The position numbers and the translations under genes were made by a program. A stretch of DNA of 64,000 nt, taken from positions 9,488,501-9,552,500 of the forward strand of contig JARWKL010000008.1 in assembly GCA_029961685.1 (NCBI GenBank), written 5' to 3'. Positions within the stretch are counted from its first letter, which is position 1; the number at the start of each line of letters is the position of its first letter. The notes below the pieces were generated by a model that saw nothing but the letters and a program-made list of their open reading frames with translations, was not told the DNA's origin and did not search any database. Source of the stretch: Aristolochia californica (Eukaryota; Streptophyta; Magnoliopsida; Piperales; Aristolochiaceae). This document shows positions 20,812 through 37,500 of this stretch, piece after piece.

Positions 20812-22330
20812 ACTTGGTATCAGAGAAGGGTAACACGGTGGAGAACAGCATGAATGAATTATGGGAGTTGGTGCTCAGAGGTCAGGCAAAGAGTGACAAA
20901 AAAAATTCACAAATCATGGAGATGTTTCCTAAAATAAATCTCGAGATTGAGAGACTGAATGGGAGGATGGATAGTATAACAACTAGTATAACGATTGGAA
21001 GGAACACAATTCTGGAACAAAGAGGAGAGGAAAATTCGCATAACAGAGGGGGAGACGAGTTTGTTGGGCGCACTAGTTTTCCTGGCCAGTAGGGCACTTC
21101 AACCAGGGAGGAGACACTGTACCCAGGTATACTAAACTTGATTTCCCTACTTTTAATGGGTCAAAAGATCCTTTGATTTGGTTGCATAGGTGTGAAAACG
21201 TTTTTAGCCATCAAAGAACAATAGCTAATGATATGGTGGGGTTGGCCGCTTTCCACTTACTGGGGGAAGCACAACTTTGGTATCATCAAGTTGAGTTGGA
21301 TAGATCATTGGTAGATTGGGAAGAGTTTAAATAATTATGCACTCTGCGTTTTGGTCCTCCAGCTCACAACAACCCTTTGGGGGATTTGGTGTTGTTACGC
21401 CAAACTGGTTCAGTGGAGCTCTATCAAAAATAGTTCTAGGAAAAATTAGATAGAGCGGGCCAAATGGTTTGGGTGGACCAGCAGGTCAATTTATTTATAG
21501 CAAGCCTTAATGAGTCCTTACGACTAGAGGCGGAGCTACATGCACTTGTCGACTTAGCCAAAACAATGAATCTCTCAGGCATTGGAACTTCGACAGAAAG
21601 TCCAGAACAGAAGACCAGCATGGCAAGGGGAATGGAGCACTTCCTTTACTTGGCAAGGACGATGAAATACTCCTCCTCAGGCATTTCATTTAGCATTACC
21701 ACCTCCGAGAAACAACATGGGTAATACTCTGACAGCAGACACGAGATCTAGTAATCCTCCTCAGTATATAAAAAAATTGACTGGTGCTGAGATGGCGAAA
21801 AGGCGGTCCAAGAATCTGTGTTACAACTGTGTTGAACAGTATCGGGCAGGTCACCAGAGCAAAAGATTGTTTTGGCTTGAAGTGGATGAAGCTTATAATC
21901 CAGATGATACGGATGATATTATAGAGGACCCACCTAAAATAACTTTGCATGCCATTACTGGGCAGAAATCTGCCAAAACTATGCAAGTCAGAGCTCAGGT
22001 CCTCTGTCAAGAACTTGTGGGACTAGTGGATTTGGGGAGTACCCACAATTTTCTTAGCTTAACTGCGGCTCAGCGTCTGCAGTTGTAGATCCTTCAACAT
22101 CTGACAACCACAGTGTCAGTGGCCAATGGGGAGAAAGTCCATAGCTACAGGATCAGCAAGGCGATAAATTTTTCCATTGGTACTACTTTATTTCATGTAG
22201 AATTTTTTGTCATTCCTCTGGCCGGATTTGATATGGTATTGGGCATTGAATGGTTACAAACTTTGGGACCCATTCTATGGGACTTCTTTGCTTTAACAAT
22301 GAGCTTTGTTTTGTGCGGTAGCCAAGTGCT
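20658..22330 (+). pseudogene. A3 gag and protease remnant
   Basis: The frame opens at 20658 inside the LTR, passes RVTRSKARDHKN at the LTR end and continues through the PBS as NLVSEKG into Gag. It stops at 21090 (TAG where A4 reads GGCCAGCCGG). Later frames give the capsid part (LLGEAQLWYHQVELD, near 21260), a zinc knuckle with its last Cys changed (CYNCVEQYRAGHQSKR, about 21820-21867), and a protease whose DSGSTHNF motif has become DLGSTHNF (about 22025). It is multiply broken and inactive. Confidence 0.82.
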
Positions 22331-23340
22331 CTTACAGGGGAGTCAAGTGAACAAACCCCATCACCTTCATTCTATGCATGCCCATGACATTACAGACAGC
22401 ACTCTTGAAAATCTTATTGACGATTTCTCCGACCTCTTCCATGAGCCTTCCGGGCTGCCTCCCATGAGGCACTGTGATCACCAAATCTGTTTGAAACCAG
22501 GGTCTGATGTGGTGGTTGTTCTACCGTACCGGTATCCACACCAACAAAAAGATAAAATCGAGAGACAGTGCCAGGCGATGTTACAATAGGGCCTTATTCG
22601 CAACAGTCGGTCCCTGTTCTCTTCACCCATATTGCTCGTGAAGAAACATGATGACACAAGGCGATTTTGTATTGATTATCAGGAATTAAACGCGCAGATA
22701 GTGAAGGATAAGTTCCCAATTCCAGCAGTGGAGGAGCTCCTAGATGAATTACAAAGGTCATGGGTCTTTACAAAATTGGACTTACGCTCTGGATATCATC
22801 AGCTTCGCATGCACCCCTCCAACATTGAGAAGACAGCATTCCGCACACATCACGGTCATTATGAATTTGTGGTCATGTCGTCCGGGTTATCAAATGCACC
22901 CTCAACTTTTCAAACACTGATGAATGAGGTATTTAGCACATATCTTCAGAAATTCATACTTGTTTTTTTTAATAATATACTCATATAAAGCAAGTCCAGA
23001 GAAGAGCATTTAGTGCATTTACGGATTGTGTTTGACTTATTATGAACACATCAGCTCTATTTGAATAAATTTAAATGCTCCTTTGCAGCATCTCATGTTG
23101 CGTACCTCAGCCACATTATATCACATGAGTGACCCCGTGAAGATTCAGGTAATTCGTGAGTGGCCACAACCTCAGTCTTGCTCAGCTTTGTACGGACTTT
23201 TGGGTCTAGTGGGCTATTATCGCAAATTCATTTGGAATTATGGTCCTCTGGCAGCCCCTTTGACAAATCTCCACAAGAAGAATTCCTTTCATTGGAACGA
23301 GGAGGCCACACAATCCTTTGAGGCCCTCAAAAGTGCTCTC
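22331..23340 (+). pseudogene. A3 reverse transcriptase remnant
   Basis: RT motifs run [29 protein letters not shown], then [13 protein letters not shown] (the usual MPFG is changed). The catalytic FFDD is FFNN (about 22966-22977), so both metal-binding aspartates are lost. After a frame break come the connection and thumb (GLLGLVGYYRKFIWNYGPLAAPLTN). The sequence stops at 23340, where B2 is inserted, and resumes at 28618. Confidence 0.85.
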
Positions 23341-31688: not shown

Positions 31689-32926
31689 AGTTGGTATCAG
31701 AACAGAGTAACACGGGAGAACCCAACAATGGTGAGTTAAAAGAGTTGATTGTTACTAACCATTGCGCCAAAAGACCGGTCTGTTAGCGAAGGTGCACCAT
31801 GCATATTAAAGACAAGTCATTCCGACATTGATGATGAGAGGGCAGCAGGCATAGGAAGAAAAACAAGCAGAGAATGAAAGAAAGTTTGCCATAATCATGG
31901 AGAAGTTAGAACAACTTCCAAATATTAATCTCCAGATTGATAGAATTTCTGGAATGATGGGAAATATTACGGTTGGAAGAAATTCAACCCCGGAGCAAAG
32001 AGGAGAGGACAACTCGTACAATGCGGGGGGGGGGGGGGGGACCAGTTTATAGGGCACACTTCCTTTCCTGGCCAAACGGGGTATTTTAACGAAGGAGGAG
32101 GCACAGTACCAAGGTATACAAAACTTGAATTCCCTACTTTTAATGGGTCAGATGACCCCATGATTCAGTTACATAGGTGCGAAAAAAATTTTACCCATTA
32201 GAGAACATCAGATATTGATAAGGTGGGATTGGCCGCCTTCAACATGCTTGATGAAGCACAACTCTGGTTTCATCAAGTAGAGTTGGATAGATTGGTGTTG
32301 GATTGGGAAGAATTTAAGGAATTATGCACTAAATGGTTCAGTCGTCCAACCCATAGTAACCTCTTGGGGGATTTGGTGTTGTTGCGACAAACGGGCCCAA
32401 TTGAACTATATAAAAAAAGTTCCAAGAAAAATTGGCATGAGCCAGTTGAATGCTTTGCGTAGACCAGCAAGTCAATTTATTTATGGCAGGCCTTACTAAG
32501 TCGTTAAGGTTAGAGGTGGAGCTCCACGCACCTGCTGACTTAGCTCGAGCAATGAATCTAGCTCGCACAGTGGAAATTCGACAAAAATTTCAAAACAGGA
32601 GACCAACTTGGCAAGGGGAATGGAACATTTCCAATAGTTGGCAAGGGAGGTTCAACACTAACCCTCATATAGCTTTTCCAGCAGGGCAATAGGTCAAAAA
32701 TCATCCCAGTACTACTCCTGCAGTAAATACATGGCCCAGCAACCCGCCCGCCCAGTATATTCAAAAATTAACTAGTGTGGAGATGGTTGAGCCTAGGGCA
32801 AAGAACTTATGTTACAACTGTGATGAACCATACAGGGCAGGCCATCAGTGTAAAAGGTTGTTCTGGTTAGAGGTCGATGAAATCACAGAATCACAACAGC
32901 TTGATGATCCTACTGATAGATGCCAG
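31689..32926 (+). pseudogene. A2 gag remnant
   Basis: Starts with the PBS (TTGGTATCAGAACAG). It shows the Gag order: a helical N-part (MEKLEQLPNINLQIDRI), a run of 18 G (near 32024-32041), KLEFPTFNGSDDP, LAAFNMLDEAQLWFHQVELD (about 32230) and a knuckle with all four ligands (CYNCDEPYRAGHQCKR, about 32810). Frame slips occur at the G run and near 32455. The sequence is interrupted at 32927, before the protease, by the LTR-tRNA insertion. Confidence 0.82.
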
Positions 32927-32930
32927 ATTC

Positions 32931-34445
32931 TGACATGAGAACTAGGTTAATTATAATTGAATAACCCTTATAATTGTGTTATAGGTGGTTATTTATCGAT
33001 TTTCACTTGAAACGTGCATTTATTGAATTTGACATTAATCATTGCTTATATTGCATATTTTTCTCTCCTGAATGATATTTCATTCCTTTTAGGGTTTATT
33101 TCTTCTTGAAATAATTTTTATGGATTTAATTATGGAATTTCAGGAGAATTTTGGTGGAGAAGAAAATATTTACCAAAATACCCTTAGTGAAAGGGAGGTG
33201 ATTTTTTAGGGCAAATCGTATTAAAACGAGAGCTCGTCGATGGAAATAGGGGGGTCGTTAACCGGAAAGAAGAGAGAAATAGGGGAGGTCGCTGACCGTT
33301 CGGAGGGGAGACCCGAGAAGGCTCCCTCCGAACGGCGTTCGTCACCGTCATCCACCACCATTCGGCAACCGAGAACAGACCCGAGGAGAAATCGAGAGAG
33401 TCTCCGTCGCAGTGAGTTCGATGCTGCCATTCTCTGCTCGCCAGGCCGAGAGGTCACTCGAGAGGGCTCCTTCGGCGCCGATTCCGCATTCCGACCATCC
33501 TCCGGCGTCGATTACCCATTTCCAACCATTTTTGAAGCTATTTCGACTCCGACCGAGATTCGAGAGAGCCGGTCAGAGGATTTTGGCTCCATTCCGTCAT
33601 CCGCCGGTTGTCACCTCCGTCCGTCGGCTTCTATCCTTCTTCGCCGGCGTCGTCTCTACTTCGGGCCACTCGCTCTTGCTACCCGAAGCCATCAATTTCG
33701 GGAAATTTCAGCACTCGTGAGAATGAGTCTGCTGCCCGAGCGAGAGCAAGGGGAAGGGGAGTAATTCGTCATTTTGGAATTTAATTTTTCTATAGTTTGA
33801 ACTTAGGTTTTGAATGTTTATTAAATATGATTTGATAATTAATGTTTATTGAATATTTGTTTTCCGGATATTTTATTAAATTAGCTAGTTAAGGTAGGAT
33901 TATAATTTAGATTGGATTTTGGTATTTTAATTCAATTTTTGTCTTTCACTTTATGCGCCCGAGAGGGGCTAGACGCAAGGATTGAGAAATCGGATTCATG
34001 ATTACGTGGCACTCGAGAGAGGCATGAATCACGGTAAAATCCAGAGTTGATAATTTTAGAATCATCACAATAGGAAATTGATTCTCTGCATTCTATTGTA
34101 ATCCGATCTCTGTCATTAACTCTAGGCACCCGAGAGGGGCTAGACGCAAGGATTGAGAATCCGGATTCATGGTTACGTGGCACTCGAGAGAGGCACGTAT
34201 CACGGTAAAATCCAGAGTTGACGTTTCCTATTGTGCAAGGAGTTAATTAGATTATTGCTTGATAATTTAGGATATAATTAGTGTTTAGTTCAGATTAATT
34301 CATCATATTTGGTTAGCCAAGTTGACTGAAGAATACACAAAATTCAATCCTCCCTGTGGATATGACCCTCGCTTACTGCTAGATTACATGAACGATTCGT
34401 ACGCTTGCGAGGTATAAAAGTCAATGTAACTCAAAATTCACATCA
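32931..34445 (+). repeat. Athila-type LTR with 171-bp-spaced internal repeat
   Basis: 1515 bp. The U5 end carries the Athila/Tat-like phrase CCTCCCTGTGGATATGACCC (34350-34370) and GTACGCTTGCGA. A GC-rich stretch at 33230-33760 is open for 174 codons without known motifs. A 92-bp unit (GAGAGGGGCTAGACGCAAGG to AATCCAGAGTTGA) occurs at 33957-34048 and 34128-34219. After 34445 the PBS TTTTTGGCGTCGTTGCC is complementary to the 3' end of tRNA-Asp. Confidence 0.75.
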
Positions 34446-34454
34446 AGTTTTTGG

Positions 34455-34526
34455 CGTCGTTGCCGGGGATCGAACCCGGGTCACCCGCGTGACAGGCGGG
34501 AATACACACCACTATACTACAATGGC
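34455..34526 (-). tRNA. tRNA-Asp(GTC)-like copy joined to the LTR primer-binding site
   Basis: On minus it folds as a 72-nt tRNA: acceptor GCCATTG with CAACGAC, A-box-like TAGTATAGTGG, anticodon arm CCCGC-CTGTCAC-GCGGG with anticodon GTC, T arm CCGGGTTCGATCCCCGG (intact B box), discriminator G, and then an encoded CCA (34452-34454). Plant nuclear tRNA genes do not encode CCA, so this was probably copied from mature tRNA. Two changes in the 5' acceptor strand (expected GTCGTTG) give two mispairs. Whether it is transcribed is unknown. TTTT follows on minus about 20 nt downstream. Confidence 0.8.
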
Positions 34527-34530
34527 GCCA

Positions 34531-37500
34531 GAAATTTCTCTGCATGCCATTACATAACAGAAATCTGCCAAAACTAACCAAGTCCAAACTCGGGTGATGG
34601 ACCAAGGCCTTGTCAGCCTTGTGGATTCAGGAAGTACACATAATTTTCTCAATTTGACCGCTACTCAACACCTTCAACTACAGATATTTCCACACTCAAT
34701 AGCAATAGTTTCGATTGCCAATGGAGAAAAAGTTCCTAGCTACTATATCAGCAAAAAAGTAAAATTCTCAAACGGCACAACTTTCTTTCTTTCAAAAATT
34801 TTTGTCGGGTTCAATATGGTATTGGGTATTAAATGGCTACAAAAATTAGGCCCTATTTTATGGGATTTTACTGCTTTAACTATGAGTTTTGAAATGGGCG
34901 GACAACAAGTACTATTACAGGGAAGTCACGTGCACAAGTCACATCACATTCATACGCTTCACACACAGGCCAATCCGGACAACAATATAGAACATCTCCT
35001 GGATGAATTCTCGAACTTGTTCCAAGAGCCCTCCGGGCTGCATCCCTTAAGGTACTGTTACCATTGGATATGTTTAAAACAAGGCTTAGAAGTGGTGGTC
35101 ATTCGACCTTATCGGTACCCACATCTCTAGAAAGATGAAATCGAAAGATAGTGCCAAGCCATGTTACAACAAGGCCTTATTTACAACAGTTGTTCACCAT
35201 TTTCATCACCAGTCCTCCTTGTTAAGAAACATGATGGTACATGACAATTTTGTGTCGATTATCAGGATTTGAATGCCCAAAATATGAAAGATAAGTTCCC
35301 TATTCCTATGGTAGAGGAGATTTTTGCACGGGTCATATATATTCACCAAATTGGATTTGCGCTCAAATATCATCAGGTTCGTATGCATCCAGAAAACATC
35401 GAGAAAACTGCCTTCCACACTCATCATGGCCACTTTGAATTTGTGGTCATGCCATTTGGGTTATCCAATGCACTATCCACATTCTAGGCATTAATGAACG
35501 AGGTATTCCACAACTATCTTCGCAAATTTTTACTTGTTTTCTTTGATGACATACTCATTTACAGCCAGTCCGAACCTCAACATTTAGAGCATTTAAGATT
35601 GGTATTTCGACTGTTACGTTCCCTTCAATTATATTTAAATAAATCTAAATGCTCATTTACGACATCACATGTGGCCTATCTCGGCCATATTATTTCCCAT
35701 GATGGGGTCACAGTTGATTTTGAGAAAATTCAAGCTATTGCCGATTGGCCGCAACCTATGAATACCTCTGCTTTGAGAGTGTTTTTGGGATTGGCAGGAT
35801 ATTACAGAAAATTTATCAGGAACTATGGACCGATAGCAGCACCATTGACAAATCTCCTCAAGAAAAATTCCTTTATTTGGGATGATCAGGCCACACGGCC
35901 CTTCTCATATCTCAAATTAGCTATTGGATTCGCACTAGTTCTGCAACTTTCCAATTTTGAAGATTTATTTGAGATCGAGTGTGACACATCAGGTGGGAGC
36001 ATTGGGGCCGTTCTACAGCAGCACTTTTACCCTATTGCATATTTTAGCTGACAGCTGGCAATACAACATCACAAATTGCCAGCATATGAACGCGATTTAA
36101 TCGGATTGGCCAAAGCTATCCAACATTGGAGACCATACTTATGGGACCGTGCATTTCTCATTCGCATTGATCATTACAGTCTTAAATATTTTCTGGAGCA
36201 GCAACTCACGACTTCTCCTCAACAACACTGGATCAGTAAATTGATGGGATTCGACTTTACAATGGAATACCGTGCTGGCAGGTTAAACAAGACGGTTGAT
36301 GCCTTGTCACGACGTTTGGAGACTCCGCCGCTTCTCTATGCTATCAGCCAACCTCATTTTATTCTATTAGACTTGGTCAAGGAGGAAAATGCCCGCAATC
36401 CGATTCTTCTCGATATGCACAAGAAAATTATAGAGGGGGCATTGGACTCTAGATGGACCATTCAAGATTCTCTTATTTATTACAATTTATGATTATATGC
36501 CCTACACACTTTGAATTTGGTTTCAGCCATCATCTCTGCATACCATGACAGCACTCATGAAGGCACCCAGAAAACATTGCATCGCATTCGAGCAGATTTT
36601 TATTGGCAGGCTATGAAGACCTCTATCGCAGCATATGTAACATCTTGTCCGATGTGTCAATGTAACAATGCCAAATACTTAAATCTCGTGGGTCTTCTGC
36701 AGCCTTTGGCACTTCCTACACAAGTGTGGGCCAAAATTTCTATGGATTTCGTTGAAAGTCTTCCCCAATCTTCTGGAAAATCGATATTATTTGTGGTGGT
36801 GGATCGGTTCTCCAAGTATGTTCACTTTATCCCCATGGCACACCCATATATAGCATCCAGAGTGGCACAGATATTTCTCGAGCATATTGTTCGTTTACAT
36901 GGTATTCCCGTATCGATTGTTAGTGATTATGATGCAGTCTTTACCAGCACATTTTGGCATGAACTGTTTTGTCTATGCAGCACCAAGTTGAAGTTCTCAT
37001 CATCCTATCATCCTCAAACAGACGGCCAAACATAGGTAGTTAATTGCACTATGAAAATGTATCTTTGATGTCTAGTGGACAATCGTCCTAAAAATTGGGT
37101 TCAATGGCTACCGTGGGATGAATATTGTTACAACACTTCCTTCCACACAGCATTACAGTCTACTCCCTTCAACATTCTATATGGCAAAGATCCTCCTCGT
37201 CTTCTCTCGTATACTCTGGGATCCACCCGTGTGGACTCTATTGATCAAGCACTCATTGAAAGGGACCAGGTGCTACAAAATATTTCGGCTCGCCTCCTCA
37301 AAGCACAAGTTCGTATGAAGGACTTCTACGACAAGGGACACTGGGATATCGCATACAAGGAAGGAGACTATGTCTGGTTACGACTCCATCCTTACCGCCA
37401 ACACTCACTAGCGGGGGACCACTGTGATAAACTTTCTCCAAAGTACTTTGGACCTTTCTCTATTATTCGACATGTCGGGCCAGTCGTCTATCAATTGCAA

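Follow-up and report, generated by a model that had tools for sequence, protein, structure and literature searches.

LTR-tRNA-Asp junctions in the Aristolochia californica genome point to reverse transcription past A58 of the primer in an Athila-like retrotransposon family

In the genome of Aristolochia californica, a single long terminal repeat (LTR) is joined through its primer binding site (PBS) to an antisense copy of a mature tRNA-Asp(GTC), and comparable junctions recur elsewhere in the 660-Mb assembly. The piece occupies positions 32914-34526 of the 64,000-nt stretch analysed here (C500:9488501-9552500; hereafter the window), where it sits inside another LTR element. It is very likely that reverse transcriptase read through the tRNA primer past A58, just before which the 18-nt PBS of ordinary family copies stops. 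The whole explanation that we favour, in which this read-through was followed by failure of the normal strand transfer and, in the window, by direct capture of the LTR-tRNA molecule, has in our estimate a probability of about 0.75.

Structure of the LTR-tRNA piece

The LTR belongs to a family that we take to be of the Athila lineage. A PBS for tRNA-Asp is typical of that lineage, and the family has one. A short spacer follows the LTR, and the tRNA copy lies flush and in register with the PBS. The piece and its flanks are composed as follows.

32860..32913, plus strand: left host flank, part of an older LTR element and ending in CCTAC (alignment to one paralogue in the window and 20 from the genome)
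32914..34445, plus strand: Athila-like LTR, TGAT...ATCA (comparison with other family copies)
32922..32926, plus strand: GCCAG, equal to LTR positions 9-13 (family LTR starts)
33846..33853, plus strand: possible R end or poly(A) site of the LTR (suggested by locus L043, whose LTR match breaks off at this point and is followed by A12)
33923..34221, plus strand: 128-bp tandem duplication inside the LTR (33923-34050 and 34094-34221, 88%)
34446..34451, plus strand: AGTTTT spacer from LTR to PBS, identical in the 7 other copies read
34452..34469, plus strand: 18-nt PBS that matches the complement of the 3' end of tRNA-Asp, CCA included, with one mismatch (34457), ending before A58
34452..34522, minus strand: copy of mature tRNA-Asp(GTC) from CCA to nt 5, 2 mismatches in 71
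34523..34526, minus strand: TGGC, which may be tRNA nt 4-1 carrying two changes or may be filler
34527..34600, plus strand: right host flank, in which GCCAG is host ACCAG with one change; 9-13 host bp are missing before GCCAG

An antisense tRNA-Asp(GTC) with CCA was called at 34452-34526 by ARAGORN and is matched by Rfam RF00005 over 34455-34526 (49.8 bits); TGG at 34452-34454 corresponds to the CCA of the mature tRNA. The joining of LTR and CCA-bearing tRNA through the PBS, proposed in an initial annotation of this stretch, is thus confirmed. The only LTR at the site begins with the first base of U3, at the family LTR start, and the tRNA lies outside it.

Copying runs 53 nucleotides beyond A58, to nt 5 of the tRNA, and the match is secure up to that point (34522). 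Where tRNA-Asp genes have CGAC, the piece finishes with TGGC, which agrees at two of the four positions and departs at the other two; among 20 gene-like tRNA-Asp matches, the third base is A in all and the first is C in 19. The passage beyond A58 that the initial annotation proposed is supported, here and by CCA-bearing copies elsewhere, and its exact end at tRNA nt 1 is not confirmed. Copying of the whole tRNA, likewise claimed for the window, is secure there only to nt 5; other loci reach nt 1 (L041 and L045) or nt 2 (L034).

On the minus strand of 34401-34526, the tRNA copy retains a B-box-like GGTTCGATCC, and TTTT lies within about 20 nt after the CCA; judged from these motifs, a short RNA polymerase III transcript is conceivable. 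The acceptor stem of the copy looks damaged. A tRNA gene finder can mistake such a copy for a gene, as ARAGORN did at this site.

Recurrence of read-through copies

The whole genome was searched with a 26-mer spanning the PBS and T-arm, allowing up to 3 mismatches. It matched 22 places, 17 with CCA and 5 gene-like without it. L036 and L039 form a segmental duplication and count as one event, so the 17 places represent 16 events. In 14 of these the window's LTR family lies directly upstream, with the LTR of L043 cut at an A12 run; upstream of the other two, L042 and L045, are other repeats that also occur in the window and that we take to be putative LTRs of other families. A second pattern found 39 places, comprising 16 of the 17 CCA-bearing ones (L045 was missed) and 23 gene-like matches; CCA is absent from all 22 of the latter that were read. 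A third search required the exact LTR-PBS pattern of the family and a next base other than G; the 11 places that it matched are eight read-throughs, two ordinary copies with one change and the single case of L108/L110, which jumps to internal sequence directly after the 18th nucleotide. All three patterns would miss more diverged events, and the counts of read-throughs are lower bounds.

Among the best 40 of 1719 BLAST candidates, three copies (the window, L002 and L006) continue past the 18-nt PBS, a figure to be read with the score ranking in mind, as it favours such copies. The check proposed in the initial annotation, whether other copies have the usual 18-nt PBS, spoke in part for its reading: five of the seven other copies read leave the tRNA match after 18 nt and enter GGCACGTATTAAG or a near form, and two are read-throughs. 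A resemblance to tRNA in the left flank of L008 was dropped and read as host coding sequence.

The tRNA copies end at 12 positions (nt 39, 29, 22, 19, 17, 16, 15, 13, 8, 5, 2 and 1), which, together with the lack of CCA in the gene-like matches, supports read-through past A58 well. Both D-loop forms of tRNA-Asp are present among the copies. Three separate events (L036, L040 and L046) leave the tRNA at nt 13, in the D arm. Complete elements carrying an LTR-tRNA block internally, which the initial annotation had named as evidence against its reading, do occur; as tRNA lengths or junctions differ each time, these are separate events and not an inherited block. The Kimura two-parameter (K2P) distances of their LTR pairs, some taken over part of the length, are 0.012 (L033), 0.033 (L037), 0.050 (L036), 0.066 (L044) and 0.068 (L040), a range which indicates that the events are spread over time. 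Neither the PBS context nor the read-through sequence had any match in scans of viral contigs (0 each).

The family PBS would stop at 18 nt because of the 1-methyladenosine at position 58 (m1A58) that the tRNA-Asp of this plant presumably carries. Opposite A58, the copies have T in 15 of the 17 places (14 events) and A in two, L042 and L045.

The insertion site

Both flanks of the piece belong to one older LTR element, whose paralogue within the window (20883-21890 and 21937-23311) aligns to 31864-32881 and 34532-35896. The window region 17133-38522 holds nested LTR elements, with an outer LTR pair at 17133-17871/37785-38522, an inner pair at 19979-20809/30460-31298 and, nested within the inner pair, a third at 23341-23777/28163-28612. 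The outer pair, presumed to be the LTRs of the host element, has a K2P distance of 0.097, which at an assumed rate of 1.3e-8 substitutions per site per year gives about 3.7 million years as an upper bound for the age of the LTR-tRNA insertion.

For the host flanks, we read 20 of the 39 other paralogues among the best 40 of 721 candidates. In all 20, a stretch of 11-14 bases separates GATGATCCTA or a near form from CCAG or a near form; its length is 14 in 18 paralogues. The window keeps one such base (C) before the LTR and at most one before CCAG, and TGA (3 bp) at the left junction is common to host and LTR. Because all 20 paralogues hold 10-13 host bases absent from the window, the site shows a deletion instead of a duplication: 9-13 host bases were lost, only to the right of the insertion point, and no target sequence was duplicated. 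Such a deletion fits end joining and not integrase.

The initial annotation had read GCCAG, which occurs on both sides, as a target-site duplication and had placed the start of the insert four bases before the LTR. The LTR start TGATAGATG is found in six of the seven other copies read, the first bases being changed in L003, and this places the start of the window LTR, and of the insert, at 32914. The left GCCAG therefore lies inside the LTR. Of 24 distinct LTR starts collected, 22 begin with TG; positions 9-13 read GCCAT in 12 of the 24 and GCCAG in the window only. In 20,000 trials, the 5-mer at a randomly chosen right edge turned up again no more than 20 bp from a randomly chosen left edge in 4.6% of cases. 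The GCCAG repeat is a chance match, ruled out as a duplication by the LTR start and the paralogue alignment. The same alignment disposes of CCTAC/ACTAC, considered as a duplication after GCCAG.

Destination of the tRNA end at other loci

Nine of the 14 same-family events continue from the tRNA into internal sequence of the element itself. This sequence follows the tRNA in L033, L036/L039, L037, L038, L040, L044 and L046, and the point of entry varies: it lies in gag, protease, reverse transcriptase, RNase H or a 3' part, or at the PBS once more. In L034 the internal sequence is antisense. The internal-region domains Retrotrans_gag, Asp_protease_2, RVT_1, RT_RNaseH and rve were identified in pieces from five related loci. 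The ninth event, L041 (C500:24867100-24870800), has a complete tRNA copy and then about 17 extra bases, the 3' internal region, the polypurine tract (PPT) and 40 bp of LTR. An 18-nt stretch, TGGCGACTCCACTGGGGA, separates the 5' end of this tRNA copy from the internal sequence; it resembles another tRNA from its 3' end as far as A58 and may reflect a second template switch.

The comparison of outer ends covered the loci other than L034, L042 and L045. Exact 5-bp duplications flank L033 (TGGAC), L040 (CCTAC), L041 (CCTAT), L044 (GTAAT) and L046 (GTGAA), L037 agrees at four of five bases, and the right LTR of L038 is cut short. The expected LTR-tRNA junctions elsewhere are thus present, with ends at varied tRNA positions instead of nt 1 and with 5-bp duplications at the outer ends of longer elements. 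Four of seven junctions share 3-5 bases with the acceptor: L044 (CTTA), L033 (CCAC), L037 (CGC) and L108 (GGGGA), whose jump starts from exactly nt 18; for L033 and L044 this count varies with the copy chosen as acceptor.

The remaining five same-family events (the window, L031, L032, L035 and L043) have no second LTR and look like captured incomplete reverse transcripts. L031 is a bare LTR-tRNA piece between duplicated host sequence (a 190-bp flank duplication). L032 shows a small target change in a tandem array; its GTTTGG repeat was not counted as a duplication, since comparison with sister repeats points to a small deletion. At the right junction of L032, tRNA nt 29 is followed by GGCGCCGTT, the start of the tRNA complement, which suggests a jump back within the tRNA template. 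L035 consists of a 5'-truncated internal part, PPT, LTR and tRNA between 9-10-bp repeats, AACCGTGCA. For L043, an LTR ending in A12 and followed by the tRNA, no duplication was found; there (C500:32400000-32403200, around 2092-2163) A12 directly joins the CCA end of the antisense copy, as though priming by the tRNA had taken place on the poly(A) tail of the element RNA. None of the five has a clean 5-bp duplication, which is to be expected if a tRNA end is no substrate for integrase.

Proposed mechanism and alternatives

We propose that plus-strand synthesis of the Athila-like element starts from the polypurine tract and copies U3-R-U5 and the 18-nt PBS. Where A58 is undermodified, or m1A58 is bypassed, synthesis would continue into the annealed tRNA-Asp, in the window to about nt 5. 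The over-extended 3' tail could not pair with the minus-strand PBS, and the normal second strand transfer would fail. Often, as in other events, the tail would be joined elsewhere on the element's own cDNA (ectopic second-strand transfer), and the resulting elements, rearranged or with internal deletions, would nevertheless be inserted by integrase. In the window, the LTR-tRNA molecule itself would have been captured by end joining in a break of the host element, with 9-13 bp lost and 3 bp (TGA) shared at the left junction; if so, an empty site would hold TGAGGAGGATCC between CCTAC and ACCAG. The window LTR probably arrived by a route other than LTR-LTR recombination, as the initial annotation had supposed.

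Several observations weigh against this explanation. Bases 34523-34526 are left unexplained. Simple strand transfer accounts neither for the antisense internal sequence after the tRNA of L034 nor for the mere 40 bp of right LTR in L041. L036/L039, in a tandem array, has no 5-bp duplication, and three of the seven junctions have extra bases and none shared: L036 (about 15), L040 (6) and L041 (about 17). The correct T opposite A58 in 14 of 16 events fits an unmodified tRNA as well as a clean bypass.

The main rival is that a complete LTR-tRNA-internal-LTR element was inserted normally and that a later deletion removed all that followed the 5' end of the tRNA, up to and including the right LTR, the duplication and some 10 bases of the host. 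Complete elements of this type exist (L033, L037, L040, L044 and L046), and the absence of host bases only to the right of the insertion point agrees with it; however, a deletion of several kilobases would by chance have to begin where the tRNA copy ends and halt no more than 13 bp from the insertion point, and L031 is likewise a bare LTR-tRNA piece, so we regard this course as unlikely. Recombination between the LTRs of an inserted element with tRNA at its right end would also leave LTR-tRNA, and L035 has this arrangement between its repeats, but the window lacks a target duplication and the 7 kb upstream of L035 yielded no LTR, which makes this route very improbable.

Insertion of the LTR-tRNA molecule by integrase with a 5-bp duplication, the course favoured by the initial annotation, has the presence of GCCAG at both places to commend it; it is refuted for the window site by the position of the left GCCAG within the LTR and by the host bases held by every paralogue read, and we give it almost no weight. 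Chance juxtaposition of a tRNA-Asp gene and an unrelated LTR would account for the tRNA prediction alone. It has practically no probability left, being refuted by the CCA, the PBS in register, flanks that form one host element and 16 further such places. Direct capture of a read-through product by end joining remains our preferred explanation for the window.

Relation to known systems

The review PMC13191261 describes read-through of plus-strand strong-stop synthesis in human immunodeficiency virus type 1 (HIV-1), with a product P1 on unmodified tRNA-Lys3 and extension past A58 in TRMT6-mutant cells; it occurs when A58 is unmodified, and the full product is unfit for normal transfer. The copies reported here likewise consist of U3-R-U5-PBS extended into the tRNA past A58; the HIV-1 product was obtained in vitro or in mutant cells, whereas in Aristolochia the primer is tRNA-Asp, the organism is a plant, and the products are fixed in the genome with the outcomes of transfer visible. 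According to PMC5618025, junctions of HIV-1 2-LTR circles contain tRNA primer sequence, so that there too it remains at the U5 end of the cDNA; those circles are unintegrated, whereas we describe chromosomal insertions and complete elements. Helenus, a terminal-repeat retrotransposon in miniature (TRIM), is a further LTR element with tRNA-like sequence, and in plants it makes 5-bp duplications (PMC10886601). Its tRNA-like sequence is inherited inside two LTRs, whereas the window has one LTR with the tRNA outside it, antisense, at the PBS and of a length that varies among loci, and identity with Helenus was ruled out (PMC10886601).

Like an ordinary solo LTR, the window copy is a single LTR without internal region; an ordinary one ends TG...CA with a flanking duplication, whereas the window copy runs past CA into PBS and tRNA and has none. 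Read-through of the tRNA is known in HIV; among the open-licence papers listed, mostly judged by title, we found no title on genomic LTR-tRNA read-through in plants and no genomic fossils of read-through.

Implications

Each of these loci preserves an intermediate of reverse transcription, together with the point at which tRNA copying halted and the destination of the new end. The A58 stop is known from HIV to play a role in plus-strand transfer, which would thereby become testable in plant retrotransposons, and some of the LTR-only and internally deleted copies usually ascribed to recombination gain a concrete origin. More tentatively, and with rather less than even confidence, we suggest that the A58 stop on tRNA-Asp is leaky for the Athila-like elements of this plant and that read-through with ectopic second-strand transfer is a standing route to rearranged and internally deleted elements. 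As m1A is often read by inserting A, the A opposite A58 in L042 and L045, both outside the window's LTR family, would then be a fossil of m1A58 misincorporation.

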